Shown here piece after piece: positions 14,446-57,146 of a DNA stretch of 64,000 nucleotides. How positions within the stretch are numbered: position 1 is the first letter of the stretch; each line of letters starts with the position of its first letter. Origin of the DNA: Candidatus Woesearchaeota archaeon. GTDB lineage: Archaea; Nanobdellota; Nanobdellia; Woesearchaeales; JACPIF01. Below the pieces are notes generated by a model. The model had not been told where the DNA came from and made no database searches. It was given only the letters and a program-made list of their open reading frames with translations. The DNA is taken from NCBI GenBank assembly GCA_016188215.1, contig JACPIF010000001.1, forward strand, positions 69,923 through 133,922. The letters run 5' to 3'. The position numbers and the translations under genes were made by a program.

Positions 14446-14577
14446 AGTCGGCGAGCTTCAGCTCGCCTCCGTGGTGCGAGGGCCAGAGGAACTGAAGTTC
14501 CTTGGTCAAGAAATGCATGGCATTTCTTTGGAGTCCCCGAAATACCAGCATAATCCGTGGTTTCGGGGACATATATT
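14446..14577 (-). repeat. Multi-hairpin intergenic element, copy 1 (inverse orientation)
   Basis: Contains, in plus-strand order, GGCGAG-loop-CTCGCC (14450-14467), hairpins AGGAACT/AGTTCCT and AAGAAATG/CATTTCTT, and GTCCCCGAAA (14533-14542) with TTTCGGGGAC (14561-14570), then ATAT. Shares the CAATATGTCCCCGA..TCGGGGAC core and the AGTAGTCGGCGAG..CTCGCCTCCGTGG module with the copy at 18105, and the core with those at 27338 and 57029. No coding potential seen. Confidence 0.72.
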
Positions 14578-14684
14578 GACAGTGACTCGTTGCAAATTAT
14601 CTTAGTCACCTGTTTTAGCAGAATTACATGCTTGTATAATCAGTAAGTTTTATATTGGTTCTCCAGTTTTTCTAACTCTCCCAT

Positions 14685-14762
14685 GAAGGTAGTAGTATAA
14701 CCTGGCTAGTATGGGGGACTGTGGATCCCTTGGTCCGGGTTCAAATCCCGGCTACCTTCCCA
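14685..14762 (+). tRNA. tRNA-His (GTG)
   Basis: Complete cloverleaf. G-1 at 14685 faces C73; acceptor AAGGTAG (14686-14692) pairs with CTACCTT (14752-14758); anticodon loop CTGTGGA with GTG at 14721-14723; T loop GGTTCAAAT type. The extra 5' G opposite C73 is the His identity element. CCA is encoded at 14760-14762, unlike the other two tRNAs here. Confidence 0.93.
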
Positions 14763-14793
14763 TTTTTACAAAGAAACCAAGACAAGATGGAAA

Positions 14794-14803
14794 AGTTTAA
14801 ATA
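14794..14803 (+). promoter_or_regulatory. TATA box for the VapB-like gene
   Basis: GTTTAAATAG, 28 bases upstream of the ATG at 14826. Confidence 0.5.
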
Positions 14804-14825
14804 GTTAAACTTGTTATACCCTTCT

Positions 14826-15068
14826 ATGAATATCTCAATAAAGAATATCAGTGATGGCGACTGGAGGCTCTTGAAATCAGAGGCAGCCAGGCATAATTTA
14901 AAGATAGCTGAATTCTTAAATAAAATGCTGCGCGAGCACAAGAAAAAGGAGGAAGAGCAAAGCAATGTACACGAAATCCTTTATGGGAAAAAAATACTTG
15001 ATGAAAAGGATGCTATAAAAATAAAGGAAGTTATGTCAGAATTCAGGAAAGAGCTTGAATTTAGGTGA
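14826..15068 (+). CDS. VapB-like antitoxin
   Basis: An 80-residue protein with a short N-terminal strand and helices (MNISIKNISDGDWRLLKSEA, then LKIAEFLNKML), which fits a ribbon-helix-helix DNA-binding antitoxin, followed by a charged C-terminal tail that would wrap the toxin. The frame begins with a TTG at 14811, but the TATA box fixes the ATG at 14826. Its stop overlaps the PIN gene start. Expected to neutralise the toxin and repress the operon (family knowledge). Confidence 0.75.
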   Translation: MNISIKNISDGDWRLLKSEAARHNLKIAEFLNKMLREHKKKEEEQSNVHEILYGKKILDEKDAIKIKEVMSEFRKELEFR

Positions 15069-15463
15069 ATAAGGTGGAGATTGCGATAGATACAAATACA
15101 CTTATAGAGATAGAGAAAAACAACAAGGACGTCATTTCTAAAATTGATAAGCTTGAATTGAATGGTGCGGAAATTTGCATAACCTCCCCTACATACTCCG
15201 AGTATTATCTTGGCCTCATGAAGCTTTCTTTAGAAAAAAAAGAGAAGGGAAGACAGAGGCTGGATAAGTATAAAATCCTTAATACAACAAGAAATAGCTC
15301 AAAATTATTAGGGGAAATCAAATATACCTTATCAAAAGCAGGTACCCCAACCCCTGTATTTGACTTATTTATTGCCTCAATTGCCATGGATAATGGCGCA
15401 CCTTTAGTAACCCAGGACGGGCATTTTAAGAGCATACCAAATCTGAAGGTTATAATGATTTAG
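15065..15463 (+). CDS. VapC-like PIN-domain ribonuclease toxin
   Basis: A 132-residue PIN nuclease. Acidic residues are in place: IAIDTNTLIEIEK near the start (first Asp), SPTYSEYYLG (Glu), FDLFIASIAMDNG (Asp) and LVTQDGHFKSI (last Asp). VapC toxins cut tRNA or rRNA. The GTG start overlaps the antitoxin stop (GTGA), the usual coupling. Intact, so the pair may be active. Confidence 0.85.
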   Translation: MNKVEIAIDTNTLIEIEKNNKDVISKIDKLELNGAEICITSPTYSEYYLGLMKLSLEKKEKGRQRLDKYKILNTTRNSSKLLGEIKYTLSKAGTPTPVFDLFIASIAMDNGAPLVTQDGHFKSIPNLKVIMI

Positions 15464-15519
15464 GATTTTGGCGGATGTTGAAATTCAGAGATGGCTCAGG
15501 TGCGCAGATTTTCCGCAAT

Positions 15520-15528
15520 CTTTATAAA
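15520..15528 (+). promoter_or_regulatory. TATA box of the rps13 operon
   Basis: CTTTATAAA; transcription would start near 15548, about 90 bases before rps13. Confidence 0.6.
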
Positions 15529-15547
15529 GCCCCTAAAATTCCACAAT

Positions 15548-15637
15548 AAGAGTTATAGCCCGAGTTCATAATGAGCGGCCCGCATGGGTTTAGGGTGATT
15601 CGCATCACATAGCTCTGTTTCTCGGCTTAGATAAAAA
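15548..15637 (+). promoter_or_regulatory. Structured leader with short upstream ORF before rps13
   Basis: An unusually long leader for this genome. It contains AGCCCGAG (about 15557-15564) that can pair, with one bulge, with CTCGGCT (about 15621-15627), an internal hairpin GTGAT-TCGC-ATCAC, and a 13-codon ATG frame at 15571-15612 (MSGPHGFRVIRIT). Could be a cis-regulator for r-protein feedback. The role is inference. Confidence 0.4.
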
Positions 15638-16144
15638 ATGGCAGAACCAAAACCACAGAACTTAGGAAAACAGGCAGAAGAAATACGGCACTTAGTCAGG
15701 ATTGCAAATACTGACCTTGATGGCAGGAAGCCTGTGTACTATGCCCTGACAAAGATCAAGGGCGTGAATTACATGTTCTCAAATTTTGTAGCGACGGCTG
15801 CCAAAGTAGACAAGCACAAGAAAACTGGATTGCTGAGCGACGGGGAAGTTAAGCGGCTGGAGGAAGCTGTGAAAAACCCGATGATACATAACCCGCCGGC
15901 ATGGCTTCTGAACCGCAGGAAGGATGCAGAGACAGGGAAGGATGTTCACCTGACTGCTGCTGACCTTGATTTTGCAAAAGATACTGATATCAAGATAATG
16001 AAGAAGATAAAGTCATATCGCGGAGTGAGGCATATCCTTGGCTTGCCAGTCAGGGGGCAGCGCACCAAATCAAACTTCAGGAAGAATAAGGGGAAGGTCA
16101 TGGGAGTCAAAAGAAAGCCTGGCGCAAAGGCAGGCAGGACTTAA
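15638..16144 (+). CDS. rps13: 30S ribosomal protein S13 (uS13)
   Basis: Small-subunit head protein that contacts the P-site tRNA and the large subunit. 168 residues, with LVRIANTDLDGRKPVYYAL, the helix-turn region IKGV, and the archaeal C-terminal signature SYRGVRHILGLPVRGQRT before a basic tail. An N-terminal extension of about 12 residues is present. First gene of the S13-S4-S11-RpoD operon, 8 bases before rps4. Confidence 0.95.
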   Translation: MAEPKPQNLGKQAEEIRHLVRIANTDLDGRKPVYYALTKIKGVNYMFSNFVATAAKVDKHKKTGLLSDGEVKRLEEAVKNPMIHNPPAWLLNRRKDAETGKDVHLTAADLDFAKDTDIKIMKKIKSYRGVRHILGLPVRGQRTKSNFRKNKGKVMGVKRKPGAKAGRT

Positions 16145-16151
16145 TAGGAAT

Positions 16152-16754
16152 ATGGGAGATACAAAAAAACAGCGGAAGAAGTATAGGGGGCCAAGCCATC
16201 CGTGGCAGAAGCTGAGGATAGAAGAGGAGCAGCATGTCCTGAAAGCGTATGGGCTGAAGAACAAGACTGAGATATGGCGCATGGCTTCACAGCTCAAGAA
16301 TTTTGCGCACCAGGCGAAAAAGCTTAATCCATTAGCGACGAAGGAAGCTGAAAAGGAGCGGCAGCAATTATTGCAGAAGCTTATCAAACTGGGATTATTG
16401 CAGCACACGGCAAAGCTTGATGATGTGCTGAGCCTGAGCCTGAAAGATATCCTTGAAAGAAGGCTGCAGACACAGGTTGTCAGGCGAGGGCTTGCAAAAT
16501 CAATGCGGGAAGCGCGGCAGCTTATCACACACAAGCATATCATGGTAAAGGGGCAGAAAATAACAGCACCATCATACTTAGTAGCGATCCAGGAACAGGA
16601 GGCGCTCGCATTTGCGGGCAATTCGCCGTTCAGCAATCCTGAGCGTAGGAAATCTTCAGGATTTCCTAGCCCTGAAACTGAAGCTTCAGAGCACTCAAAA
16701 CGTGCTGCCCAGCCAAAACCTGAAATCAAGCGGGTTGAGGCGGCAGCTGAATAA
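16152..16754 (+). CDS. rps4: 30S ribosomal protein S4 (uS4) with palindrome-derived C-terminal tail
   Basis: Primary 16S rRNA binder. 200 residues: an archaeal N-terminus ([17 protein letters not shown]), core helices, and the S4 RNA-binding fold ([26 protein letters not shown]) at about 110-150. Archaeal S4 usually ends soon after that domain; here a Ser/Pro/Glu-rich tail (residue 162 on) is encoded by three back-to-back palindromes at 16646-16706 and more. The start is the ATG at 16152 (MGDTKKQ); an upstream open frame overlaps rps13 and is ignored. Two bases separate it from rps11. Confidence 0.94.
16646..16706 (+). repeat. Three tandem palindromes inside the rps4 coding region
   Basis: TAGGAAATC-TTCAG-GATTTCCTA (16646-16668), CTGAAGCTTCAG (16678-16689) and AGCAC-TCAAAAC-GTGCT (16690-16706), all in frame. 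The first matches the intergenic palindromes at 40553 and 54883. Confidence 0.65.
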
Positions 16755-16756
16755 CA

Positions 16757-17155
16757 ATGAGAGAAGATACCATGAGATGGGGAGTTGCGCACATTTACTC
16801 CAGTTACAACAATACGATTATCCATGTCACTGACATAACTGGCTCAGAGACCATAGCAAAGGCATCCGGCGGCATGGTGGTAAAGGCAGACAGGCTTGAA
16901 AGCAGCCCGACTGCAGCTATGATGGCTGCAAAAAAAGTAGCGGAGGCAGCCATTGATAAAGGCATAAGGGGAATCCATGTCAAGATAAAAGCCCCAGGCG
17001 GCCACAACGGGCCGGCAAACCCAGGACCAGGAGCGCAGGCTGCAATCAGGGCGCTTTCACGGATGGGGTTGCGCATAGGAATTATTGAGGATGTAACGCC
17101 CATACCGCATGATACATGCAGGAAGAAAGGCGGCAGGCGCGGCAGGAGGGTATAA
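16757..17155 (+). CDS. rps11: 30S ribosomal protein S11 (uS11)
   Basis: Platform protein near the mRNA exit. 132 residues with the full family pattern: [45 protein letters not shown] and the end [20 protein letters not shown]. Its stop TAA shares the A of the rpoD ATG, so the two are translationally coupled. Confidence 0.96.
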
Positions 17156-17940
17156 TGGAAATACAGCTCATAGAAAAGCATAAGGAGAAAGATACAGTTA
17201 CCTTTTCATTGAAAGATGCAACACCGGCATTTGCAAACATGCTGCGGCGCTATATCATGGAGGAAGTCCCGGTGATGAGCATTGAGGATGTTGAATTCCG
17301 CAAGAATTCATCAGTCCTGTATGATGAGATGCTTGCCCAGCGGCTCGGGCTCGTTCCTTTGAAGACAGACTTGAAGTCATATAACCTGCCTGAGAAATGC
17401 AAATGCGAAGGAAAGGGATGCGCATCATGCCAGCTGAAGCTGGTCCTGAGGGCGAAAGGGCCGGGCGTAATATACACTTCAGAAATCAAGAGCAAGGATC
17501 CTAAGGTAAAGCCGGTGCACCATAAAATGCCGATTGTGAAGCTGCTGAAAGGGCAGCTGCTTGAAGTTGAGGCTACCGCAACCCTCGGCAAGGGCAAGCA
17601 GCATGTGAAATGGAGCCCAGGGCATGTGTACTACCGCAACAAGCCGATCGTTGAGATGGCAGGCGAGCCGGATGCAGAGGCAGCTGCACGCTATCCATAT
17701 ATTTTTGATACAAAAGGGAGCAAAGTTGTGATCAATAAAGATATGATACTGAAATATGATGTACTGGAAGATGTCCAGGCAGCCACAAAAGGAAAAGTAA
17801 AGGTGGCTGAGAAAGAAGACGAGTTCATATTTACTGTAGAAAGCTTTGGACAGCTTGAGCATGCGGATATGGTAGCAGAGGCGCTGCGCATATTTGAGGA
17901 GCATGTTGAAGAGTTTTCCGAGAAAATCAAGAAAACATAA
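17155..17940 (+). CDS. rpoD: DNA-directed RNA polymerase subunit D
   Basis: The archaeal counterpart of Rpb3/alpha-NTD; with subunit L it nucleates polymerase assembly. 261 residues. FANMLRRYIMEEVPVMSIEDVE is the dimerisation motif; the zinc-type CKCEGKGCASC at about residues 80-90 corresponds to the Rpb3 CxC..CxxC site. The insert that carries the Fe-S cluster in some archaea has no cysteines here, so no cluster is expected. The start is the ATG at 17155 (MEIQLIEK), not the earlier frame opening inside rps11. tRNA-Leu follows at once. Confidence 0.95.
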   Translation: MEIQLIEKHKEKDTVTFSLKDATPAFANMLRRYIMEEVPVMSIEDVEFRKNSSVLYDEMLAQRLGLVPLKTDLKSYNLPEKCKCEGKGCASCQLKLVLRAKGPGVIYTSEIKSKDPKVKPVHHKMPIVKLLKGQLLEVEATATLGKGKQHVKWSPGHVYYRNKPIVEMAGEPDAEAAARYPYIFDTKGSKVVINKDMILKYDVLEDVQAATKGKVKVAEKEDEFIFTVESFGQLEHADMVAEALRIFEEHVEEFSEKIKKT

Positions 17941-17945
17941 CTTAT

Positions 17946-18060
17946 GCGGGGGTGGCAGAGCCTGGCCAAATGCGCTATTTCATTCCCAAATGGGGATGGA
18001 GCGTAAGCTTGAGGGGCTAGTCCCTTAGTGGGTGCGCGTGTTCGAATCACGTCCCCCGCA
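17946..18060 (+). tRNA. tRNA-Leu (GAG) with candidate intron at 29/30
   Basis: Acceptor GCGGGGG/CCCCCGC (17946-17952 with 18053-18059), A73 at 18060, T arm GCGTG-TTCGAAT-CACGT, and a variable arm with CCC-TTAGT-GGG. The anticodon arm closes only if 17978-18006 is removed: CTA + GC then pairs perfectly with GCTAG around the loop TTGAGGG (anticodon GAG, 18011-18013). The 29-base insert folds as CATTCCC-AAAT-GGGGATG. CCA is not encoded. A one-base shift of the intron borders gives the same product. Confidence 0.85.
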
Positions 18061-18104
18061 TTATTGTGAAAGATTGATGATAGGATAATAACGACTAGGA
18101 GTAA

Positions 18105-18203
18105 GTAGTCGGCGAGATGAATCTCGCCTCCGTGGCGCGAATGAGTCCCCCGAATCGCATTTACATAAAATCGGGGGACATATTGTGGCGCGCATTTCGC
18201 GCC
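18105..18203 (-). repeat. Multi-hairpin intergenic element, copy 2 (inverse orientation)
   Basis: GGCGAGATGAATCTCGCC (18111-18128), GTCCCCCGA (about 18144) with TCGGGGGAC (about 18171), and GGCGCGCATTTCGCGCC (18187-18203). Same module order and wording as the copy at 14446, lying inside the r-protein operon between tRNA-Leu and rpl18e. Confidence 0.72.
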
Positions 18204-18240
18204 AGTATCCAATTAAAATAAAAAACTTCAGAATTAGAAA

Positions 18241-18606
18241 ATGGCAATAAGAACAGGACCGACAAACCCAATCATGCAGAGCCTAATACAGGAACTCAGG
18301 AAAACAAGCAGCGAGCAGAAGATTCCATTATGGGACAGGATAGCTGATGACCTTGAGAAGCCGACAAGGCAGCGCAGGGCAGTCAACCTATCAAAGATAA
18401 ACAGGTTTACAGAAGAGAATGAGATGATCATTGTGCCGGGAAAAGTGCTTGGCTCCGGTGCGCTCAGCCACAAGCTCACAATTGCTGCATTCAGCTTTTC
18501 AGCAGGCGCGCTTGAGAAGATAAGCAAGGTGCAGGCCAAGGCAATCTCCATCAAAGAGCTGATGCAGCAGCCCATCAAGGACAAGCGGGTGAGGATTTTA
18601 GGATGA
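18241..18606 (+). CDS. rpl18e: 50S ribosomal protein L18e (eL18)
   Basis: Archaeal/eukaryal large-subunit protein. 121 residues with TGPTNPIMQSLIQELRK at the start, NLSKINRFTEENEMIIVPGK, GSGALSHKLTIAAFSFS and the end KDKRVRILG. This is the canonical position before rpl13 and rps9. An AT-rich possible promoter lies at 18212-18225, so the second half of the operon may be expressed apart from the first. Confidence 0.95.
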   Translation: MAIRTGPTNPIMQSLIQELRKTSSEQKIPLWDRIADDLEKPTRQRRAVNLSKINRFTEENEMIIVPGKVLGSGALSHKLTIAAFSFSAGALEKISKVQAKAISIKELMQQPIKDKRVRILG

Positions 18607-18607
18607 T

Positions 18608-18651
18608 GAAAATCTTTGATTTTCAAACTTTAAATTCCTGGAGGAATTTAA
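18608..18651 (+). promoter_or_regulatory. Two hairpins, the second masking the rpl13 ribosome-binding site
   Basis: GAAAATC-TTT-GATTTTC (18608-18624) and TTAAATTCC-TGGA-GGAATTTAA (18630-18651). The Shine-Dalgarno GGAGG lies in the loop and 3' arm of the second, 9-13 bases before the rpl13 ATG at 18653. Confidence 0.5.
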
Positions 18652-18652
18652 A

Positions 18653-19063
18653 ATGATAATAGACGCAAAGCAGACGGTTTTAGGAAGGTTGGCTGCAGTA
18701 GCGGCAAAGCAGGCATTGTTGGGAAATCCTGTTGAGATAGTCAACTGCGAGCAGGCCATAATCTCAGGCAGGCGGGAGAATGTGTTTGCCAAGTACAAGA
18801 GGAAGAGAAAACTGGGCGGACCGTTCCAGGGGCCATTCATACCGAGGAATCCCGACATGTTTGTGAAGCGGGTCATAAGGGGCATGCTGCCGTACAAGCA
18901 GTACAAGGGCAGGAAGGCGTTTGAGCGCATAAGGTGTTATGCAGGCATTCCTGCAAAATTGCAAGGGCAGCAGGCGGAACAGGTCGCTGACGGCATGTCA
19001 CTGGCAATGTCACGATACGTAACAGTGCAAGAGATTTGCAGGCAACTGGGGAGCAAAAGATGA
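18653..19063 (+). CDS. rpl13: 50S ribosomal protein L13 (uL13)
   Basis: 136-residue large-subunit assembly protein. IIDAKQTVLGRLAAVAAKQAL opens the fold and NPDMFVKRVIRGMLPYK is the conserved RNA-contact loop. The stop overlaps the rps9 start as ATGA. Family length is normal. Confidence 0.95.
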   Translation: MIIDAKQTVLGRLAAVAAKQALLGNPVEIVNCEQAIISGRRENVFAKYKRKRKLGGPFQGPFIPRNPDMFVKRVIRGMLPYKQYKGRKAFERIRCYAGIPAKLQGQQAEQVADGMSLAMSRYVTVQEICRQLGSKR

Positions 19064-19458
19064 AGCCACCAATCCACGTTTCAGGAAAGAGAAAGCGATC
19101 CATAGCACGGGCTACATTGAGGCCTGGCAAAGGCGTTGTCAGGGTTAACCACCTGAATCTGCAGGCTATGAACCATTACTTGCCTAAGATGAAGATACTT
19201 GAGCCACTGCTTATTGCAGGAAATGTCGCAGGCACTGTCAATATTGATGTTACTGTAAGAGGCGGTGGAATCATGTCGCAGGCAGAAGCCAGCAGGCTGG
19301 TAATAGCACGGGCACTTGCACAGTTTGACAAGAAGCTTGAGAAGCCTTTCCAGGAGTATGACCGGCATCTGCTTGTTGCGGATGTACGGCGCAAAGAAAC
19401 TAAAAAACCAAATCGTCACGGGAAGGCGAGAAGCAAGACGCAAAAAAGCTATCGATAA
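19060..19458 (+). CDS. rps9: 30S ribosomal protein S9 (uS9)
   Basis: 132 residues; the C-terminus (HGKARSKTQKSYR) reaches into the P site, and the KSYR end is diagnostic (SKR/YR in the family). SGKRKRSIARATLRPGKGVV and VRGGGIMSQAEASRLVIARAL are the core motifs. The start is the ATG at 19060 in the ATGA overlap with rpl13; an earlier in-frame opening at 19036 is ignored. Confidence 0.95.
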   Translation: MKPPIHVSGKRKRSIARATLRPGKGVVRVNHLNLQAMNHYLPKMKILEPLLIAGNVAGTVNIDVTVRGGGIMSQAEASRLVIARALAQFDKKLEKPFQEYDRHLLVADVRRKETKKPNRHGKARSKTQKSYR

Positions 19459-19469
19459 AGGGAGGAAAA

Positions 19470-19670
19470 ATGATTATTCCAATAAGATGTTTCAGCTGTG
19501 GCCGCCCCATTGGGCATCTCTACGAAGATTATTTGGAGAAATCCAAGGCTAACCCAGAAGATCGCAAAAAGATACTGGATGAGCTCGGGCTGCAGAGGTA
19601 TTGCTGCAGGGCAATGTTCCTGGGGCAGGTTGACCTCATTGATTTAGCTGCGCCGTTCAAGAAGTTTTAG
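19470..19670 (+). CDS. rpoN: DNA-directed RNA polymerase subunit N
   Basis: The archaeal Rpb10 homologue, a small zinc-bundle assembly factor contacting subunits D and B. 66 residues: MIIPIRCFSCGRPIGHLYED with the CxxC near the start, and RYCCRAMFLGQVDLIDL with the CC pair. GGGAGG at about 19460 is a good Shine-Dalgarno site. This is the standard last gene of the rpl18e-rpl13-rps9 group. Confidence 0.96.
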   Translation: MIIPIRCFSCGRPIGHLYEDYLEKSKANPEDRKKILDELGLQRYCCRAMFLGQVDLIDLAAPFKKF

Positions 19671-19707
19671 CAATAAGTTTAAAAAGCATCTTAGAATTTG
19701 CTCTTAT

Positions 19708-20915: not shown

Positions 20916-20926
20916 TTTCCCAAAAC

Positions 20927-20936
20927 CTTATAAAAC
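20927..20936 (+). promoter_or_regulatory. TATA box for leuS
   Basis: CCTTATAAAA, 24-33 bases before the ATG at 20960. Confidence 0.55.
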
Positions 20937-20959
20937 CATTTCATACTTCCCTCTGCACT

Positions 20960-27299: not shown

Positions 27300-27337
27300 G
27301 GCATCTACAATTACTTAACCTTTAACCTTGCAAAACT

Positions 27338-27429
27338 GCGCGAACTGCGCGCTCAATATGTCCCCGAACAGCAAGTTTATGGAAGAATCGGGGACAATTC
27401 ACAGTCCAGCTCAACTTTAGTTGAGCTGG
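27338..27429 (+). repeat. Multi-hairpin intergenic element, copy 3
   Basis: GCGCGAACTGCGCGC (27338-27352), CAATATGTCCCCGA (27354-27367) pairing with TCGGGGAC (27388-27395), then CCAGCTCAA (27406-27414) with TTGAGCTGG (27421-27429). The same order as the copy at 57029. It fills most of the 230-base gap after trpS. Confidence 0.72.
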
Positions 27430-27529
27430 TTACCTGCTCATTTTAGTATAAAAAGAAAAATTGCTTTGGTTTAACACATAACAAAATTTAAATAGCTAAC
27501 TGAACATCTTACTATTAAAGAGGTGCATC

Positions 27530-27769
27530 ATGGAAAAACTGCAGTTTGCTCCGCTGCCGAGCACATTCATGCTTACAGCAATAGTTGGGTTCCTTACTTC
27601 TGTGATACTTGTATACCCAAGCTCAGCCAGCTGGGGATTCGCATTTGCCCTTGTCTTTGTGTTCATGTTCGCAGCCTCACTTATATCAATGACGCATGCG
27701 CCTGTTGGGCCAGAGCTTGCCCTGCATCCCAGAAGACAGCATCTAAAGCACACTAAAAAGAAGAAATAA
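27530..27769 (+). CDS. Small two-pass membrane protein
   Basis: 79 residues with two membrane segments (FMLTAIVGFLTSVILVY and FAFALVFVFMFAASLISM) and a Lys-rich tail ending KHTKKKK. AGAGGTG 5-11 bases before the ATG is a good Shine-Dalgarno site, and AATTTAAATAG at about 27484 a TATA. It resembles short conserved archaeal membrane proteins, without a name I can assign. Confidence 0.65.
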   Translation: MEKLQFAPLPSTFMLTAIVGFLTSVILVYPSSASWGFAFALVFVFMFAASLISMTHAPVGPELALHPRRQHLKHTKKKK

Positions 27770-38023: not shown

Positions 38024-40291
38024 ATGAGGCGTACAAAGAGCGTGTTGTTGATAATCTTCTTGCTTTTGCTATTTACGGGGCTTGCAAGTGCCCAGCCATT
38101 CACTTCATACGGCACAATAAGCAACCAGACAAGCTGCCCATGCGAGCCAGTCAGCTACCCATTTTACCTTAAAAATAATAATGTGTTCACTGAAACATAC
38201 AGGCTGGTGGTTGAGGGCGAGCTTGCGGCGTATGCCAAGGCAACAGTGCCTTCACAATTCCGGCTTGAGCCTGGGCAGGAAACTCAATTCTCGCTTATCA
38301 TACAAGCCCCCTGCGGGCTCTATGGAACCAAGAAATTCAATGCTGTCATCAAAGCTGAGCAGCAGAAGATCTCAGCTACATTTCCTTTAGCCTATGCAAT
38401 CAAGCGGTGCTATAATTACAGCATTGCAACAGGAGAGGCTGTATTGCAGCTGCCTGCATTCTATACTCCCCAGAGCTTTTCAGAGCAGCAGAATTATGCA
38501 ATATGTGAGAATGAGAGCAGGATTATACCGCTCAGGATAGAGAATGAGGCTGGCTTCAGCAACAGCTACCAAATTTCAATATCCAGTACAGCAAAAAATC
38601 TTGCAGCATTGCTTATCCGGCGCGCGACCCTGAATGCATCACAAGCTGCAGTTATACCATTACTCGTAACTATTCCACAATACAGCCAGGCAGAGTCAAA
38701 TATTACCCTTTCCCTTGTTTCAGAGCTGGGGAAAGTGCAGAAACAGAAAACCATAGCAATCCAGCCAGTTTACTGCGTTACACCAGTTATAACATTTTTA
38801 GGAAATGACAGCTTAACAGTAAACTATACCAAAACAACGTTCTCAGTGTTTGTCAGCAATCGCGGCACTTTACGGGGGACATATACTGTGCGGGTGACAG
38901 GCGCTGATTGGATAAAACCTTCCACTGCCAGCTTTGGGCTTGAGCCTGGGCAGGGGATTGAGCTGCAGCTTGTAAGCGAACCGGAGCAGAATACGGCGGC
39001 AAAGAAATATGAGCTGCAGATTGAGATTACTGCACAATCATCTGGCAATACCTATGCAAAGCCGTTTACTGTTACGCTTAACGGCACACCTTTCCTTGCC
39101 AAGGTGGCAAAAGCCTTGGAAAAGCCTCTTTCAATATTACTGAAGTATATATGGATTATAATTGGAAGCCTTGTTGCTCTTGCATTAATTATTTTTCTGG
39201 CGCAGCAATATCGCGAGTACAGGAGGCTTGAGCTGCAGCAGCCCAGAGTTGCAAGAAGAATCAGCAGGACTGTAAAAGTTGCAAAAGTTGCCGGGCCAAC
39301 GGGACTGACAAAACAGCCAAAAATTACTTTGACTATCCCAATTGTATCCCCATTCTTGGTATTCCTGGCACTGATTGTTGCGGTTGTCCTGGGAGTCGCG
39401 GGGATACTTTACTTAGGGTTGCTTCCTGAAGAAGCGGCATTAAACCAGACAAAACCTTTTACCGTACCCCTGCAGGGGCTTAACTTCTCACTCCCGGCTA
39501 ATTTTACAGTAAGTATTCCAAGTTATAATTTCACGGCAATAACAACGGACAATGAGTTCCTGCCTTTATTGCTGTATATCCTGGCTGTGCTGCTTGCTGC
39601 CATTGCCATATATATCTGGATGAGAAGGCAAAAGAAGCATGAATTAAAGAAAAGAAAGGAGGAAAAGAAAGAGATTGGTCAAAGGCTGGAAGCCCTAGAA
39701 GCCTTGAAGCCAGAAGCGCCCGAGGAGCTGAAAGAAGAGCGCCCTGGGAGGTATGGCTTATCCAAAGTTTTAATCATAGGAGGTATAGCTATTGTGCTGC
39801 TGCTCCTGCTTGCCCTGGCAGTGTTCAAATTCCCTGGAGCAATTACTACATTTGTACCCAACAGGTCAATTGAAGAATACAAGGAGCCAGTAATAGATGC
39901 AACAAAACCGGCTTTCTTCATTGAGCAGGATGAAGAGCTTGAAATTAACCTTTCCGCATACTTCTATGACCCAGATAATGACCCGTTATACTTCAATGCA
40001 ACTATTGGAGGCAATATGACTGTTGTCATTAAGAATACAACTGCCGTCCTCAAGCCAAGAAAAGGATTTTATGGCGCATCATATGTTGTATTCACTGCAA
40101 ACGACCGGAAAGGAGGCATGACAGAGACTGGTGCCATACCAATAGTGGTGCGCAGATCGCAGAAACCCGGGATTTTAGATGAGGCTATCGATTTTATAAG
40201 CCTCTACAGATACTTCTTTATTCTTGGACTCATACTTATGGCGCTACTGATTGCGGTCCTGTATTACAGGGAGAGGGGAAAGAAAGAATAA
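38024..40291 (+). CDS. Large multi-pass surface protein with Cys-rich N-terminal domain
   Basis: 755 residues from the ATG at 38024 (the frame opens with a TTG at 38012). Signal peptide IIFLLLLFTGLASAQ, a Cys-rich domain (SCPCEPVSYPFYLKNNN) paralogous to the preceding protein, Ig-like stretches with many Asn-x-Ser/Thr, then five membrane spans between about residue 365 and the end. A cadherin/Ig-like unit (YFYDPDNDPLYFNATIGG) sits before the last span. An acidic coiled stretch lies between spans 3 and 4. It closes the block. No enzyme motif seen, so it may be structural or a receptor. Confidence 0.72.
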   Translation: MRRTKSVLLIIFLLLLFTGLASAQPFTSYGTISNQTSCPCEPVSYPFYLKNNNVFTETYRLVVEGELAAYAKATVPSQFRLEPGQETQFSLIIQAPCGLYGTKKFNAVIKAEQQKISATFPLAYAIKRCYNYSIATGEAVLQLPAFYTPQSFSEQQNYAICENESRIIPLRIENEAGFSNSYQISISSTAKNLAALLIRRATLNASQAAVIPLLVTIPQYSQAESNITLSLVSELGKVQKQKTIAIQPVYCVTPVITFLGNDSLTVNYTKTTFSVFVSNRGTLRGTYTVRVTGADWIKPSTASFGLEPGQGIELQLVSEPEQNTAAKKYELQIEITAQSSGNTYAKPFTVTLNGTPFLAKVAKALEKPLSILLKYIWIIIGSLVALALIIFLAQQYREYRRLELQQPRVARRISRTVKVAKVAGPTGLTKQPKITLTIPIVSPFLVFLALIVAVVLGVAGILYLGLLPEEAALNQTKPFTVPLQGLNFSLPANFTVSIPSYNFTAITTDNEFLPLLLYILAVLLAAIAIYIWMRRQKKHELKKRKEEKKEIGQRLEALEALKPEAPEELKEERPGRYGLSKVLIIGGIAIVLLLLLALAVFKFPGAITTFVPNRSIEEYKEPVIDATKPAFFIEQDEELEINLSAYFYDPDNDPLYFNATIGGNMTVVIKNTTAVLKPRKGFYGASYVVFTANDRKGGMTETGAIPIVVRRSQKPGILDEAIDFISLYRYFFILGLILMALLIAVLYYRERGKKE

Positions 40292-40294
40292 AAG

Positions 40295-40428
40295 TGGGGA
40301 TGCAGCGATTTGAACGCTGATAAATCGGTTTCTTCATTTCATCGTCCTAAGACTCAATTTTCCAGAATGGATACTGGAGCCGATTGTAATGCCAGGGTGT
40401 ACGGATTACTCCTTTATACCACATCCCC
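40295..40428 (-). tRNA. tRNA-Trp (CCA) with two candidate introns
   Basis: On the reverse strand: acceptor GGGGATG (40428-40422) with CATCCCC (40302-40296), A73 at 40295, T arm CAGCG-TTCAAAT-CGCTG. The anticodon stem ATCGG/CCGAT closes around CTCCAG plus A only if 40373-40330 (44 bases, position 37/38) is removed; the anticodon CCA is at 40377-40375. The D arm (GTATAA..CCCTGGCATTAC) also needs about 16 bases near 40413-40398 removed; these include the hairpin GGA-GTAA-TCC. CCA is not encoded. No good alternative tRNA identity fits. Confidence 0.82.
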
Positions 40429-40552
40429 TTAATTTTCTAAAAAGGTAGCTAATCTTATTTAAATATTGCCCTTTGCGCGGGAGTGCTACTAGAAACTGTT
40501 AACTTGCAACTGGTCACACTGGCAATACATGTCCGCGAATATCAACTGTACA

Positions 40553-40640
40553 TAGGAAATCATAGATTTCCTAGTCTCAAAAATCTCTGATTTTTGAAAT
40601 ATTACGGTTCGCGGACCCCCGCCCAGGTTCGCGCAGCGAA
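40553..40640. repeat. Palindrome cluster downstream of tRNA-Trp
   Basis: TAGGAAATC-ATA-GATTTCCTA (40553-40573), TCAAAAATC-TCT-GATTTTTGA (40577-40597) and inverted GGTTCGCG/CGCGAAC-like arms to about 40640. The first matches palindromes in rps4 and at 54883. The 220-base gap holds no gene. Confidence 0.6.
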
Positions 40641-40648
40641 CTATGCCC

Positions 40649-40981
40649 CTATTTAATGTAAAGCTTTGCACCTTTCTTTATCCTAAACCTCTTTATACTT
40701 CCTCTGGGCAGTTCAAGGATGTATTGCGCTTTATGTTTTGGGCTGTATAAAGTAAAAGACCTGAAATCCTCCTTTAGTTCTACTACCCTTTTTGCCTTAT
40801 CCATGAATACTACATCAATCGGGAAGAAGACGAACCACATGTGCAATGGGTAGATGGCTTCTTTTTTAAATATGAATAGCAGCGGCTTTGGCTTGGGGGT
40901 AAACATCAGGCCAATGGCCCGGGAAAGGTATGAGGTGCATGGCTGAGCCTCTATACTATTTTTGCTGATTTTGACGCGCAT
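40649..40981 (-). CDS. DUF192 family protein
   Basis: 110 residues with the DUF192 pattern: YLSRAIGLMFTPKPKP, HMWFVFFPIDVVFMDKAKRVVE, and the C-terminal YILELPRGSIKRFRIKKGAK. DUF192 proteins fold as a small beta barrel and are often exported; this one lacks a signal peptide. Function not established. Divergent from the next gene; both promoters lie in the 43-base gap. Confidence 0.82.
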   Translation of the reverse strand: MRVKISKNSIEAQPCTSYLSRAIGLMFTPKPKPLLFIFKKEAIYPLHMWFVFFPIDVVFMDKAKRVVELKEDFRSFTLYSPKHKAQYILELPRGSIKRFRIKKGAKLYIK

Positions 40982-50816: not shown

Positions 50817-50831
50817 GATGAGGATATACTG

Positions 50832-51260: not shown

Positions 51261-51270
51261 GTATGCTAAA

Positions 51271-52092: not shown

Positions 52093-52094
52093 AT

Positions 52095-52892
52095 ATGGAC
52101 CAGAACAAGCTCATTGACCTGCATGCGCACCTGGACCATCCTGCGTTTAAAGATGATCAGGATGAGGTCATTGCCAGGGCCAAGGAGGCTGGGGTTTCGA
52201 TCATCCTCATATCAGGAGTTAACCCAAAGAGCAACAGGGCTGTGCTGGACTTATGCAGTAAGTATCCAGACATCCTCAAAGCATCACTTGGCATATATCC
52301 TATAGACGCTCTTCAGCGGGAGATAGAGACAGGGGAATACCCTTTGAAATCTGAGCCATTTGATATTGATGAGGAGATTGCATTCATTGAGAAGCAGAGA
52401 AAGCATATACATGCGGTTGGGGAATGCGGGCTTGACTACCATTGGATAAAAGATAAAAAGGAAGCGCAGAAGAAGCTTTTTGCAAAGATTATTGCGCTCT
52501 GCGAGCGGATAGACAAGCCTCTGATTGTGCACTCACGGAAGGCAGAGGACGACTGCATTGCCATGCTGAAATCATCCAAACTAAGAAAAGTGAATTTCCA
52601 TTGCTTTACTGGAAACAAGAAGCTGGTGAAGCAAATTGCAGAGCAGGGATGGTATTTTTCTGTCCCGGCCAATATTGTGAGAAGCCAGCAGTTCCAGGAA
52701 CTGGTAAAAGAAGTGCCGCTGTCGCACCTGTTCTGCGAGACTGACAGCCCGTACCTGAGCCCATTTAAAGAAAAGCGAAACGAGCCTGCCTTCATAATGG
52801 AGGGCTACAAGAAGATAGCTGAGCTCAAGCGTATGGAACTGGCAGAGGTTGCGCATAATATCTATATGAACTGGCAGCGTGTATTCACGTGA
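52095..52892 (+). CDS. TatD-family metal-dependent hydrolase (DNase)
   Basis: 265 residues. LIDLHAHLDHPAF is the His-x-His metal site, VGECGLDYH the central Glu motif, LIVHSRKAEDD and VNFHCFTGN further His ligands, and CETDSPYL the last Asp. TatD proteins are 3' exonucleases or D-tRNA-like deacylase relatives with roles in DNA quality. Probably transcribed through from the pilin genes, but this may be chance. Confidence 0.9.
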   Translation: MDQNKLIDLHAHLDHPAFKDDQDEVIARAKEAGVSIILISGVNPKSNRAVLDLCSKYPDILKASLGIYPIDALQREIETGEYPLKSEPFDIDEEIAFIEKQRKHIHAVGECGLDYHWIKDKKEAQKKLFAKIIALCERIDKPLIVHSRKAEDDCIAMLKSSKLRKVNFHCFTGNKKLVKQIAEQGWYFSVPANIVRSQQFQELVKEVPLSHLFCETDSPYLSPFKEKRNEPAFIMEGYKKIAELKRMELAEVAHNIYMNWQRVFT

Positions 52893-52937
52893 CAATAGTC
52901 ATGCAAGTTTAATAAGTCTGAAACAGGGACTAGCTAC

Positions 52938-53429
52938 ATGCGCCGCAAACAAGCAGGAAAGGCTTTACTGAAGCAGATCCATGCGGATACGAAACAGCTG
53001 AAGCAACGCATGCTTGAGCGGGTGCCGGGGCATTTCTCAAAAAAGGATATCATTAATGCATTCCTGGGCTCTATGTTTATAGGGCTGACATTCATCCTGA
53101 GGACAGATATAGTTGATATCGCGCTTCGCCTTGACTCTCTAAGGATAATACTTATTGTGCTTTCTACATTTCTTATACTCACGGCTGAGATATATTTTAT
53201 AGGGTACAGCAGGGTTCCCAACAAGAAAACACGCGGCTTCGGACAGTTCTGGGCAAAGAGGTTCGTATCACTATACCTTGTGACTGTGCTTGTAGACCTG
53301 TTTCTGGTTTATATCTTCGGCATCAATACATTTGTCAGCAGTGGAGAGGAAGTATTCAAGATTGTCGTGCTTGTAGCGATGCCATGCGCAGTCGGAGCTG
53401 CTGTGCCGAGCATATTGACCAAGTATTAG
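52938..53429 (+). CDS. Integral membrane protein, DUF2391-like
   Basis: 163 residues. An N-terminal basic helix (QIHADTKQLKQRMLERVPG) is followed by about four membrane segments. The layout and the FLGSMFIGLTF and VGAAVPSILTKY ends resemble DUF2391 (TIGR02587-type) proteins; function unknown. Overlaps the convergent gene by 4 bases. Confidence 0.65.
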   Translation: MRRKQAGKALLKQIHADTKQLKQRMLERVPGHFSKKDIINAFLGSMFIGLTFILRTDIVDIALRLDSLRIILIVLSTFLILTAEIYFIGYSRVPNKKTRGFGQFWAKRFVSLYLVTVLVDLFLVYIFGINTFVSSGEEVFKIVVLVAMPCAVGAAVPSILTKY

Positions 53430-53746
53430 AGAAGCCTATCAACAGTTGATACCATCCTATTTATTTCTATAACATTACTAATGTATTCTGGCGTATCTGG
53501 CGCATTATTTTCAACAGATTCTATCATGGGATGAAATATTGTTACGTAAACTGTGGATGCACCAATCGCACCTAAAACCATATTGAAAAGTCCAGGATCG
53601 TATTGACGTAAGAAAAAACCACCGATTGCAATTCCTGCAGCATATAGACTAGATTCACCTGGATTTTCCCTTACAAAATCCTTTATTTCAGTAAATGCAG
53701 ATACCAAAGATTCAATATTCATAAAGCAGCTAATTTGATATTTCAT
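53426..53746 (-). CDS. Small membrane protein, unknown
   Basis: 106 residues; hydrophobic stretches at about 33-48 (SLYAAGIAIGGFFL) and 55-72 (MVLGAIGASTVYVTIFHPM). Not recognised. AT-rich. The start could also be Met9 at 53722. Confidence 0.45.
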   Translation of the reverse strand: MKYQISCFMNIESLVSAFTEIKDFVRENPGESSLYAAGIAIGGFFLRQYDPGLFNMVLGAIGASTVYVTIFHPMIESVENNAPDTPEYISNVIEINRMVSTVDRLL

Positions 53747-53780
53747 TTAAAAACCTTGTGCTGTTTCTGTTTACTGTCTT

Positions 53781-54356
53781 TTACCGCGCTATAATCCTTG
53801 CTTTTTTTCCTGTCAAATCCACGAGCTTTGAAGGCCTAGCCTTCTTTTCCCCTTCATAGATGATGAGATCAACGTGCTGCTTCACACCCCCATCAAGATT
53901 CTCAAGGCTGGTCATGAACTGCTGCGTGGTGAGGTTTGCTGACGTGGAGACAATCGGCTTTCCTAATGTTGCTGCAATCTGCGCTGACCAGTTTCCAGGA
54001 ATGCGTACGCCAAGCGTGCCGCTGCCCTGCGTCACATTTTCGGCTACACACCTGCTTTCCTGTAGGTTAAGGATCAATGTATATGGACCTGGAAGCCTGG
54101 CAAGCCATTTCCTGGCTTCTGCTGTTACCTTGCAATTCTTTGCAATCCACGATTTAGAAGGCGCAATGACAGAGAAAGGCTTTGCATCCCTTTGCTTTGC
54201 TTTTCTAATGCGAGCGACCGCATCCTTATTTGTCGCGTCACAGCCTATGCCATAAATTGTGTCAGTAGGGTATATGAAGACCAAACCCTGTTTAATCTGC
54301 TTTAGAATCCTTGACTTCTGCTTGTGGTATTCACTTGCTGATATTACTGCTGCCAT
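53781..54356 (-). CDS. Sua5/YrdC/YciO-family protein, threonylcarbamoyl-AMP synthase
   Basis: Makes threonylcarbamoyl-AMP for the t6A37 modification of tRNA. 191 residues: the YrdC fold with FIYPTDTIYGIGCDATN (nucleotide-site), KPFSVIAP, LPGPYTLIL, LGVRIPG and PIVSTSANLTT. The Sua5 C-terminal domain is absent, as in YrdC. TATA on this strand at about 54379-54387 gives a leaderless start at 54356. Confidence 0.88.
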   Translation of the reverse strand: MAAVISASEYHKQKSRILKQIKQGLVFIYPTDTIYGIGCDATNKDAVARIRKAKQRDAKPFSVIAPSKSWIAKNCKVTAEARKWLARLPGPYTLILNLQESRCVAENVTQGSGTLGVRIPGNWSAQIAATLGKPIVSTSANLTTQQFMTSLENLDGGVKQHVDLIIYEGEKKARPSKLVDLTGKKARIIAR

Positions 54357-54425
54357 GGCAACAATAATTTTGATTACCTATAAAAATGTTATAGCAGAAA
54401 GTAACCACCCCCTAAGAAAATGAGT

Positions 54426-54471
54426 CAGTAGCCTGCGTGCCTCTTATTCAGAGGTATGAGCAGGACTACTG
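54426..54471. repeat. Hairpin, gene-free gap
   Basis: CAGTAGCCTG (54426-54435) pairs, one bulge aside, with CAGGACTACTG (54461-54471) around CCTCT-TATTC-AGAGG. Near it (54402-54416) is TAACCACCCCCTAAG, a G-rich run on the minus strand. Confidence 0.5.
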
Positions 54472-54562
54472 ATGTAAACAGCAATTGCCTACGTGTCAGG
54501 AAAAGCTCTGCATTACTAAGCGTCAAAATATGATTTTGAGGCTAGAAAATGTGGAACATTTT

Positions 54563-54667
54563 CTAAGCATCCAGATAGCCGCGCATGAAGGCTTCCTCAA
54601 AGTCAGTTATGGCATCATCATCCATGGATTCTTCAAGGAATTCCTGATCGTAAAAGTCTTTTTCCAT
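54563..54667 (-). CDS. Tiny acidic protein (34 residues)
   Basis: Frame with a strong Shine-Dalgarno site: GAAGAGGTGATTGCT directly before the ATG at 54667. It reads MEKDFYDQEFLEESMDDDAI, ending EEAFMRGYLDA. The acidic helix plus FMRGY ending resembles short unnamed proteins of DPANN genomes. Just after the stop, AGAAAATG-TTC-CATTTTCT forms a hairpin. Co-transcribed with the ORF upstream. Function unknown. Confidence 0.55.
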   Translation of the reverse strand: MEKDFYDQEFLEESMDDDAITDFEEAFMRGYLDA

Positions 54668-54682
54668 AGCAATCACCTCTTC

Positions 54683-54787
54683 CTATGCTGCACTGGAGAG
54701 CAGGCCATGCCTGCTGGCTTTCCTGGTCATCTGCATCATCCGCTCATAGTATATTTGCTCAATTGTCTCTTTTCTTAAGTCTACCAT
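54683..54787 (-). CDS. Tiny protein (34 residues), first of the pair
   Basis: ATG at 54787 preceded by GACAGAGGTGACTGC, a good Shine-Dalgarno site. It reads MVDLRKETIEQIYYERMMQM, ending RHGLLSSAA. Stop at 54683, 15 bases before the next start. The arrangement (two equal-sized SD-led frames under one TATA) argues for real genes. An 11-codon frame upstream (54848-54813) lacks such a site. Confidence 0.5.
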   Translation of the reverse strand: MVDLRKETIEQIYYERMMQMTRKASRHGLLSSAA

Positions 54788-54858
54788 TGCAGTCACCTCT
54801 GTCTTTTTGCTCTTAAAGACGAGCTGCTGGCCAGCTTCTTTTGCCCATCTTATTTGCT

Positions 54859-54902
54859 AAGAAACCATTGGTTTCTTTTGCTAGGAAATCTTTAGATTTC
54901 CT
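54859..54902. repeat. Two short palindromes in the leader of the tiny-gene pair
   Basis: AAGAAACCATTGGTTTCTT (54859-54877) and AGGAAATC-TTTA-GATTTCCT (54883-54902); the second matches those at 16646 and 40553. Confidence 0.6.
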
Positions 54903-54933
54903 TTGTTTCAATAAGAAATAATGAGCCTGTCGC

Positions 54934-54941
54934 TTTATATA
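54934..54941 (-). promoter_or_regulatory. TATA box for the tiny-gene pair
   Basis: TATATAAA on the minus strand; predicted start near 54910, leader about 120 bases to the first tiny gene. Confidence 0.5.
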
Positions 54942-54956
54942 CCTCACGCGAGCGCC

Positions 54957-54982
54957 TGACCAGTGACCAGTGGTGGGGGTGG
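54957..54982. promoter_or_regulatory. Possible origin-recognition (ORB-like) element
   Basis: TGACCAGTGACCAGTGG followed by a GGTGGGGGTGG tract, a CCAGTGG plus G-run order that loosely matches archaeal ORB elements, lying in the 700-base gap next to orc1/cdc6. A matching G-run lies inverted at 54402-54416. Low certainty. Confidence 0.3.
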
Positions 54983-55056
54983 AAGCGTTATATTAATGGT
55001 TTAAGGGGGAAATACGTTGCAATGGCACTGGACATGGTTCCTGTCTTATGCCTGCT

Positions 55057-56136
55057 CTATGAGAAGTCTGTGAGCTTCTTGCTCTGGCCTGAATTATACT
55101 TAATGATGGAAGTGTTGCCCTCTGAACCGCCATCTGTCCGGGCCACTATGATAAAGCGGTTCTGCTCAAGCTTCTTGATTTTGCGCTGGAATGTCTTGTA
55201 GCTTGAGATGCCGCCAGAGTCCTGGTAGGACTTGAACAGCTCGCCTATTTTCTTGCCTGAATTGCTCTTCGCAATAGCAAGGATAAAGCGCTCATCCTCC
55301 CCCAGGTCAAGGCTGCTCTTGATATTGAACTCGTCAATCTTGCTGATGGCATGCTCAGCATCCTGCTCATCTATTGAGCGCGAGCTGCGGCTTTCAGCAT
55401 GCTGCGCTGCCTCTTTCATCAGATGAAGGCCGGTGCGGATGTCTTCCATGGCTACTGTCTTCTGCACTATCATGTTGAACGCTTCAGGCTTCATGGCATT
55501 CGGCACGAATGCAAAGTCGACACGCTGCCGCAGGATGCCTTCTGTCTCTTTTGCAGAGTATGGCCTGAACTCCATCATGTCCGGCATCAGCCTTGATTTG
55601 ATGCGCTGCTCCAAGGTTGCAACCCATTCCTTGTGATTAGTAATTAGAATGATGCTCTTCTTGTGTATATCCTCCAGAATGGCGTAGAGGAAATCATAGT
55701 CCTCTGCCTTGTCAATCTCGTCAAAGATGAAGACCACTGCGCGCTTGTTGAGGATTTTCCTGGCAACGTCAAACAATTCATCGGTTTTCTTGTTATGCGT
55801 CAATCGGTAGCCGAGCTTTTCACACAACTCTAGAGAGATTTTGAAGGATGTATTTTTCTGCCAGCAGTTTACGTAGATAGGGATTACTTCATCTGTCTTC
55901 TCTTCAATCTCTTCAGTCACCTTGAGGCAGGCCAGCGTCTTACCTATGCCTGGCTTGCCGTATATGAGCAGGTTTTTTCCATTCCTGTTATTGAAGAGGG
56001 GAGCAATGCAGGAAGCTATGTAGCGCTGCTGCTGCTCACGGTAGAGCACGAGCTTAGGCATGTAGCTGAAGTCCAGAGCAAACTCATTCTTGAAAATAGA
56101 TTCATCTGCCCCCAGCATATTCCCGAACATACCCAT
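55057..56136 (-). CDS. Orc1/Cdc6 replication initiator
   Basis: 359 residues. AAA+ ATPase that recognises the origin and loads MCM. Walker A IYGKPGIGKTLACLKV at about 57-73, Walker B VFIFDEIDKAEDYD at about 134-147, sensor 1 ILITNHKEW, an Arg in RIKSRLMPD, and a C-terminal winged helix (about 285-350). The lid and sensor 2 region is normal. In archaea the origin usually lies beside this gene, here best in the 700-base gap at its 3' side. An ATG at 56136 and one at 56130 are alternatives. Confidence 0.9.
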   Translation of the reverse strand: MGMFGNMLGADESIFKNEFALDFSYMPKLVLYREQQQRYIASCIAPLFNNRNGKNLLIYGKPGIGKTLACLKVTEEIEEKTDEVIPIYVNCWQKNTSFKISLELCEKLGYRLTHNKKTDELFDVARKILNKRAVVFIFDEIDKAEDYDFLYAILEDIHKKSIILITNHKEWVATLEQRIKSRLMPDMMEFRPYSAKETEGILRQRVDFAFVPNAMKPEAFNMIVQKTVAMEDIRTGLHLMKEAAQHAESRSSRSIDEQDAEHAISKIDEFNIKSSLDLGEDERFILAIAKSNSGKKIGELFKSYQDSGGISSYKTFQRKIKKLEQNRFIIVARTDGGSEGNTSIIKYNSGQSKKLTDFS

Positions 56137-56246
56137 GGTGATTCCCGTTTATAGTAGGTCTAGGAATGTTTATAAGGGTTTCTATGAAACTATCTTTCTT
56201 ATCTTCTGCGAAAGGTATATATGCACTTACGCATCATATTCGTTTT

Positions 56247-56657
56247 ATGAAAGACTGGATTATATTTTCTCTGGTTGCCATGGTATTGTGGGGACTATGG
56301 GCCTTTTTGCCGAAACTTGCATCTGCGTACATAGACCCGAGAAGTATCCTGGTTTATGATGTAATAGGCACATTCATTGTTGGAGTTGTTGTATTCTTTA
56401 TAGTTCAATTTAAACCAGCATTTCACATGCAGGGAACAACTCTTGGCATATTGACCGGTATTGCAGGTACGTTAGGCCTGCTTTTTTTCCTTTTTGCATT
56501 GCAGCGCGGGGCAACATCCCTCGTTGTCACCACTACTGCTCTTTATCCGGTAGTCACCATTCTCCTGGCTTCAATATTGCTGAAAGAACCTGTAACACTA
56601 AAGCAAGGATTAGGTGTTTTACTCGCAATTGTAGCGATAATTCTTATGTCAAGTTAA
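56247..56657 (+). CDS. EamA/DMT-type half transporter
   Basis: 136 residues, about five membrane segments, one EamA unit: WIIFSLVAMVLWGLWAFLPK, FALQRGATSLVVTTTALYPV and KEPVTLKQGLGVLLAIVAII. Normal DMT transporters have two units; a single unit would work as a dimer, or this is a diverged SMR/DMT. The frame opens at 56166, but the TATA (GGTATATATGC at about 56212) supports the ATG at 56247. Substrate unknown. Confidence 0.72.
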   Translation: MKDWIIFSLVAMVLWGLWAFLPKLASAYIDPRSILVYDVIGTFIVGVVVFFIVQFKPAFHMQGTTLGILTGIAGTLGLLFFLFALQRGATSLVVTTTALYPVVTILLASILLKEPVTLKQGLGVLLAIVAIILMSS

Positions 56658-56981
56658 CTAACGCAGCTGCGCGCCGCAGTTATGGCAGAAGTTCTGGGCC
56701 CTGTTCACTAATGCCCGGCAGCGCCAGCAGTACTTGTGCTGATTGGAGCCTATGGCAAGCCTGCCCTGAGGCTCTTGTTTTGCCTTAAACCTTTTTTCAG
56801 GCTCCTGCTGCTCGTATTTAGGCTCCCTAACCTTGTCTATGAGTAGCTTGAGCAAGCCGAACGTGATGAATGCCCCGCCCACGATGTAGAACAGAAGCTG
56901 CTGGTTGCCCTTAAATACGAAGAAGCTTGTAGCTGCTACAAATATGCCTACAATCGCATAGACCAAGCCATTGATGCGCAC
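56658..56981 (-). CDS. Membrane protein with C-terminal zinc ribbon
   Basis: 107 residues, GTG start after AGAGGTG. Two membrane segments (VYAIVGIFVAATSFFVF and LLFYIVGGAFITFGLL), a basic linker and a C-terminal ribbon YCWRCRALV..FCHNCGAQL with two CxxC pairs. A common archaeal architecture; function unknown. Overlaps nothing; the neighbour repeat is upstream. Confidence 0.68.
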   Translation of the reverse strand: MRINGLVYAIVGIFVAATSFFVFKGNQQLLFYIVGGAFITFGLLKLLIDKVREPKYEQQEPEKRFKAKQEPQGRLAIGSNQHKYCWRCRALVNRAQNFCHNCGAQLR

Positions 56982-57028
56982 TTTTCACCTCTTTATTTGA
57001 TATATTTAAAATAATATAACAATCTGCA

Positions 57029-57146
57029 CCGCGCTGCGCGCGGAAGCGCTCGCTCTGCTCGCGCACTATGCCAAAAGTCCCCGAGTAATTGCTGGCAGCT
57101 CGCGGTTCGGGGACTAATACAGTCCAGCTCAGCAAGCTGAGCTGGT
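57029..57146 (+). repeat. Multi-hairpin intergenic element, copy 4
   Basis: CCGCGCTGCGCGCGG (57029-57043), GTCCCCGA (57077-57084) with TCGGGGAC (57107-57114), ACAGTCCAGCTCA and TGAGCTGG (to 57146). The same module order as the copy at 27338. It lies between the zinc-ribbon gene and serS. Confidence 0.72.

Follow-up and report, generated by a model that had tools for sequence, protein, structure and literature searches.

ERIC sequences, the enterobacterial intergenic repeat units, are imperfect palindromes of 127 bp that resemble miniature inverted-repeat transposable elements (MITEs) and occur in tens of intergenic copies, some of which carry or occupy coding sequence (PMC2759123, PMC10969869). 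Prokaryotic MITEs such as the Correia element of Neisseria or SM1-SM4 of Sulfolobus are likewise short, non-coding and intergenic, with inverted termini and tens of copies (PMC10969869), and the REP (repetitive extragenic palindromic), BIME and REPIN repeats with TnpA-REP (RAYT) form mosaics of dispersed extragenic hairpins (PMC2817692, PMC3733652, PMC3116915). Palindromic hairpin repeats described as mobile are also present in small organellar genomes, namely the mitochondrial double-hairpin elements and the GC clusters of yeast mitochondrial DNA (PMC4478555, PMC5910586). In small archaeal genomes, palindromic repeats are little described. Here, we report a family of three-hairpin elements in a Candidatus Woesearchaeota archaeon, found in a 64,000-nt stretch of contig JACPIF010000001.1 (the window) and followed through the genome (1.11 Mb, 13 contigs, 91% complete), of which 310 kb were fetched as stretches around copies. 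With modest confidence, we read it as a lineage-specific, non-autonomous, MITE/REP-like palindromic repeat family whose sense copies would permit or aid transcriptional read-through.

Searches with a relaxed pattern and with two covariance models revealed about 65 dispersed copies of the unit, 60 of them catalogued and five added by eye (two of these degenerate). This bears out the original prediction, made from the sequence of the window, which had noticed four such elements there and named a search for further genome copies as a check. All four are real and lie where they had been placed, and their modular order, both orientations and the shared AGTAGTCGGCGAG..CTCGCCTCCGTGG module are as ascribed to them; the count itself falls short, as a fifth copy, built on a GTCCGCGA/TCGCGGAC stem whose loop carries two additional hairpins, is present in the window at ~40504-40652. 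Genome-wide, the exact stem GTCCCCGA..TCGGGGAC gave 15 matches and the reversed control pattern none, and the window contains five matches to the relaxed palindrome GTCCCN{16,46}GGGAC, four of them elements, where dinucleotide shuffles predict 0.35. Compared with shuffles, the folds of three of the four originally noticed copies are far more stable (z of -5.9, -4.6 and -3.9), and that of the copy at 57029 is unremarkable (z of -1.8).

On its sense strand, the element is ordered as terminus, Y hairpin, linker, central hairpin, second linker, X hairpin and inverted terminus. Its length from terminus to terminus has a median of 132 bp (range 108-217 bp); plain units measure ~108-118 bp, and those above this length bear extra hairpins. 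The central hairpin consists of an 8-9 bp stem and a conserved loop of ~21 nt, in which many copies carry ACAGCnAG twice, ~11 bp apart, and it spans 35-40 bp in all copies except an insert-bearing one. The Y loop is mostly TAAA (19) or TGAA (8) on the sense strand, and the linkers come in several types, GTGAACA, GYGCGAG, GACGTTG and TTACG for the first, and ATRTTG, TTTGGCACAG and CATGGTGG for the second. At the Y side, the terminus reads ..ACTAA..TGAGCA or ..ATTTGCA, and at the X side its inverted form, TGCAAATTAGT, the type of the element termini being ACTAATTTGCA. Independent motif searches, one for each flank, converged on related motifs in inverted orientation (..AATAATGAGCA at the Y side and, read in reverse, ..TTAATTTGCA at the X side), with log-likelihoods of 121-125 against 42-45 for shuffled flanks. 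The resulting terminal inverted repeats are imperfect, ~10-12 bp long and far above shuffled flanks, as in MITEs. These GCA/TGC-type termini, the true element ends, lie outside the limits drawn originally, which were right in location but too narrow, and which for the copy at 14446 did not distinguish an extra double hairpin at 14487-14528.

The central stem varies in sequence while staying paired. Fully paired types are GTCCGCGA (22 copies), GTCCCCGA (15), GTCCCCCGA (9), GTCCCCGT (4) and GTCCGCCA (3), accompanied by single cases that include GTCCGCTC/GAGCGGAC, and because at least seven such types exist in total, several paired changes are required. At pair 5, C-G and G-C occur 29 times each and a wobble twice (60 copies), and 99.7% of the cells are paired in an alignment of 43 sequences, so that arm changes do preserve pairing, the point on which the earlier claim was to stand or fall. 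The covariation score of this alignment (0.244, compared with 0.047 after shuffling and no more than 0.020 after sliding) counts sequences and not independent events. Both main stem classes have linkers in common.

From such compensatory changes the original prediction had argued for a selected RNA or DNA structure. The pairing is real, but the argument for selection is weakened by signs of template switching: wobbles fill only 2 of 240 cells at central stem pairs 5-8 and are nearly absent from the Y and X stems as well (3 G.T among 893 pairs, in a search that favours perfect stems), and the central loop is inverted relative to the arms in five copies. As a rough yardstick, G-U pairs amount to 25% in signal recognition particle (SRP) RNA and 17% in RNase P RNA in minimum free energy folds from the same window. 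Template switching between inverted repeats yields arm homogenization together with spacer inversion (PMC8604942), and it has been proposed as maker and keeper of RNA hairpins (PMC8794818). The scarcity of wobbles and the five inverted loops therefore suggest that the arms are homogenized at the DNA level by template switching. Since wobble-poor stems and inverted loops can arise without selection, paired changes alone are no proof of RNA selection, and we therefore read them as at least partly an effect of DNA-level copying.

The copies are short, non-coding and intergenic; none contains a gene, and none of the 60 catalogued lies inside one. Between co-directional genes, 36 copies are in sense orientation, running from Y to X in the direction of transcription, and 6 are in antisense (binomial p 2.8e-6). 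Another 12 occupy spacers of divergent genes, and automatic calls placed at most three in convergent spacers, two of which (window 40531 and locus L100) are probably tandem on reading. A TATA-like box before the downstream gene is absent for 25 of the 36 sense tandem copies and present for 5 of the 6 antisense ones (Fisher p 0.023); the ratio of sense to antisense is thus 25:1 if the downstream gene lacks such a box and 11:5 if it has its own promoter. The X end lies some tens of bases from the ATG and is followed by an A-rich leader, and on the antisense strand the DNA past the Y end is often T-rich. In divergent spacers, TATA-like boxes are present ~30 nt upstream of the ATG on both sides, and because they stand at this distance from start codons, many genes look leaderless, which suggests that the mRNAs of this archaeon are mainly so. 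A 5' leader with its own upstream promoter was rejected, as TATA-like boxes ahead of the Y end are no commoner than in shuffles (9 seen, 7.6 expected). Both the conservation of the loops and the bias in orientation argue that something recognizes or tolerates one strand only.

Searches of 59 relatives, of 352 further genomes of the order and of a class-wide sample gave no convincing copy; the order- and class-scale scans scored only ~15 candidates per genome, so that weak or rare copies could escape. The lone match in another genome of the order lacks arms and is at chance level over 353 genomes. In genome contigs, the matches listed for the Y module are all chance-like; viral contigs gave 16 matches to the Y pattern (by pattern match alone), and three matches there to the central pattern were dismissed, as all lie in contigs of 63-72% GC and lack the flanking modules. 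Rfam searches of the window and 17 loci returned only RNase P (archaeal in the window), SRP RNA and tRNA, with no match for the element, and the earlier statement that no named family has this pattern holds for Rfam and the literature searched. The archaeal RNase P and SRP RNA of the window mark the genome as archaeal, and the large number of families in its order suggests a DPANN lineage. Integron attC sites and CRISPR were set aside, as neither arrays nor typical attC ends are present.

With ERIC, the family shares size, imperfect palindromy and tens of intergenic copies; it differs in its archaeal host, three hairpins, a stem that varies yet stays paired, modular arms and a strong orientation bias in promoterless spacers, a distinction drawn from ERIC's description. 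The resemblance to MITEs extends to the inverted termini, but neither a target-site duplication nor a parent transposase was found (DDE and recombinase families were not searched), and the copies are divergent. GTAG ahead of the Y hairpin recalls the REP/REPIN tag, GTAG or CGTC next to a palindrome of 20-40 bp, but it is restricted to one arm type, and the fixed order of the three-hairpin block, the inverted termini and the missing Y1 transposase set the family apart from REP, BIME and REPIN. The nested double hairpins described below resemble the mitochondrial double-hairpin elements in form, although these, like the yeast GC clusters, are organellar, and we know of no three-hairpin unit among either.

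Among the possibilities raised originally, a non-autonomous element fits best: ~65 copies are dispersed between genes, their termini are inverted and their arms modular, and they contain no gene. We infer that the unit spread through intergenic DNA as recombining modules, which would have taken up a second, double-hairpin repeat on the way. Its arms would be kept near-perfectly complementary in DNA, probably through template switches in which one arm serves as template for the other, in addition to selection. Where a transcribed spacer lacks a promoter for the gene that follows, nearly all surviving copies are in sense (Y to X) orientation: a sense copy may act as a structured spacer that lets downstream transcription and translation continue, and an antisense copy probably blocks or ends transcription.

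Several points weigh against this reading of a mobile, passive repeat. Target-site duplications were not detected (best z of 3.2 over ~600 offset/length tests, no clear peak), and the comparison set holds no second genome of the same family in which empty sites could be compared. PF01797, the Y1 domain of TnpA-REP/RAYT type, is unmatched in this genome and matched in 5 of 14 control genomes, and neither an IS200/IS605 Y1 transposase nor TnpB was found in the 91%-complete assembly, DDE and recombinase families not having been searched. With neither target duplications nor a Y1 transposase, the family cannot strictly be assigned to the classical MITEs or REPs. Moreover, the copies are divergent and not near-identical, which leaves a recent spread unproven. 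The constancy of the Y loop on one strand, and of the central loop in sequence and length, points to sequence-specific recognition, for which a passive repeat has no need. Lastly, the orientation bias depends on gene calls of our own, TATA-like boxes were scored by simple matching to a consensus, and the 3 G.T and 3 A.C among 893 pairs of Y and X stems come from a hairpin search biased towards perfect stems; their equal numbers (3 versus 3) gave no answer as to the RNA strand.

The same orientation data would suit a cis-acting structured RNA, in which the sense element would act within polycistronic mRNA as an intercistronic leader or as a processing site that a protein cuts or binds, so that the promoterless next gene is expressed or stabilized. 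The 25:1 ratio, the X end tens of bases before the ATG with its A-rich leader, the strand-specific URAA loops of Y, the conserved central loop, helices that covary (albeit through changes that may be DNA-level) and the leaderless appearance of other genes, with TATA ~30 nt upstream of ATG, all speak for it. Nevertheless, the 12 divergent copies, most with a promoter between element and gene, would fall outside the adjacent mRNAs, wobble pairs usual in RNA helices are almost missing from the anchored stems when set against SRP and RNase P RNA, and Rfam offers no match, so that we consider this explanation unlikely. Less probable still is a site for a DNA-binding or chromosome-organizing protein that contacts the dyad GTCCSCGA and the ACAGC half-sites of the loop in duplex DNA, with the flanking hairpins incidental. 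The near-constant central length, the ~11 bp spacing of ACAGCnAG and the presence of copies in divergent, probably untranscribed spacers agree with such a site; however, a base-reading protein could hardly tolerate a stem free to vary among at least seven types, the flanking hairpins keep a fixed order, and the orientation bias would be left unexplained.

Terminators of the preceding gene, another of the original suggestions, would account for strong hairpins downstream of stop codons, for the gene with its own promoter after 5 of 6 antisense tandem copies, and for the T-rich antisense strand past the Y end. As a promoterless gene follows 25 of 36 sense copies, divergent spacers need no terminator, and a copy occupies a clear convergent spacer only once, this function is very improbable for the family. 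The third suggestion, stand-alone small RNA genes, seems hardly credible, although size and structure would fit, as would the location between genes: in divergent spacers the copies stand between two promoters that face outward, TATA-like boxes ahead of the Y end stay at shuffle level, Rfam shows no relative, and the 65 copies have modular, mixed arms.

Within the window, all five copies have approximate ends. Copy 1 (14441-14594, sense +) has its Y end at the left and its X end facing tRNA-His at 14686; its Y hairpin (14450-14467, GGCGAGCTTCAGCTCGCC) has a loop inverted relative to most copies, and between it and the central hairpin (14533-14570, GTCCCCGA..TCGGGGAC) the nested double hairpin at 14487-14528 interrupts a linker that is unbroken in locus L032. 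In copy 2 (18098-18211, sense +), the Y hairpin (18111-18128, GGCGAGATGAATCTCGCC), the central hairpin with a 9-bp stem (18145-18179, GTCCCCCGA..TCGGGGGAC) and the X hairpin (18186-18204, TGGCGCGCATTTCGCGCCA) precede an L18e/L15-like ribosomal protein gene at 18241, the X end being ~30 nt upstream of its ATG. Copy 3 (27328-27438, sense -) is opposed to its flanking genes, the downstream one of which, at 27530, is preceded by a TATA-like box of its own; the element's central hairpin (27360-27395, -) has an inverted loop relative to most copies, and its Y hairpin lies at 27406-27429 (-). Copy 4 (57025-57153, sense -), with its central hairpin at 57077-57114 (-) and its Y hairpin at 57124-57145 (-, CCAGCTCAGCAAGCTGAGCTGG), directs its X end at a gene at 56658-56981 (-). 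Copy 5, the additional one (40504-40652, sense -), has a central hairpin at 40531-40616 (-, GTCCGCGA..TCGCGGAC) with a double-hairpin insert in the loop (40553-40597), and its X end faces a tRNA-like sequence at 40290-40426. That sequence (-) and another at 17946-18060 (+) look like intron-containing tRNA genes, and are unreported by ARAGORN and at the Rfam gathering threshold.

The inserts belong to a second family, two short perfect hairpins 2-12 nt apart, of which 41 were counted in the 310 kb fetched, approximately, as a few join an element's own hairpin with a neighbour; shuffled sequence yields 0.2 per 64 kb. Eighteen of the 41 lie within 150 bp of a central hairpin, and some are inside loops or linkers of three-hairpin elements, as in copies 1 and 5. 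Solitary double hairpins are also present in spacers (window 54523-54565, 54859-54902 and 18607-18652; L026:5972-6015 and others). Furthermore, the double hairpin occurs in frame in three unrelated genes (window 5324-5367; L030:3530-3572; L036:3676-3718), a GyrA-like one at the N-terminus, an EamA-like one at the C-terminus and that of ribosomal S19e in the C-terminal part, where it codes for almost one peptide, ~KQSFPGARNARISE. This is reminiscent of the Rickettsia palindromic elements; a genome search allowing at most 3 mismatches found none beyond the three.

For studies of RNA structure, the family carries a caution, since paired arm changes, the usual proof of such structure, can stem from DNA template switching, of which wobble-poor stems and inverted loops are warning signs. 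With ~65 natural copies in a single genome, oriented either way and lying at varied distances from promoters, the family can show the effects of hairpins in archaeal transcription units. Most intriguing is the possible leader role of sense copies for promoterless genes. That a lineage-specific mobile hairpin repeat came to serve widely as an intercistronic leader, the other genes of this archaeon looking leaderless, is a doubtful proposition at present; if true, the sense RNA, with its URAA-loop hairpin, conserved 21-nt loop and A-rich tail, would enable genes without a promoter to rely on RNA processing or on ribosomes loaded there, and a selfish palindrome would have rewired operon expression.

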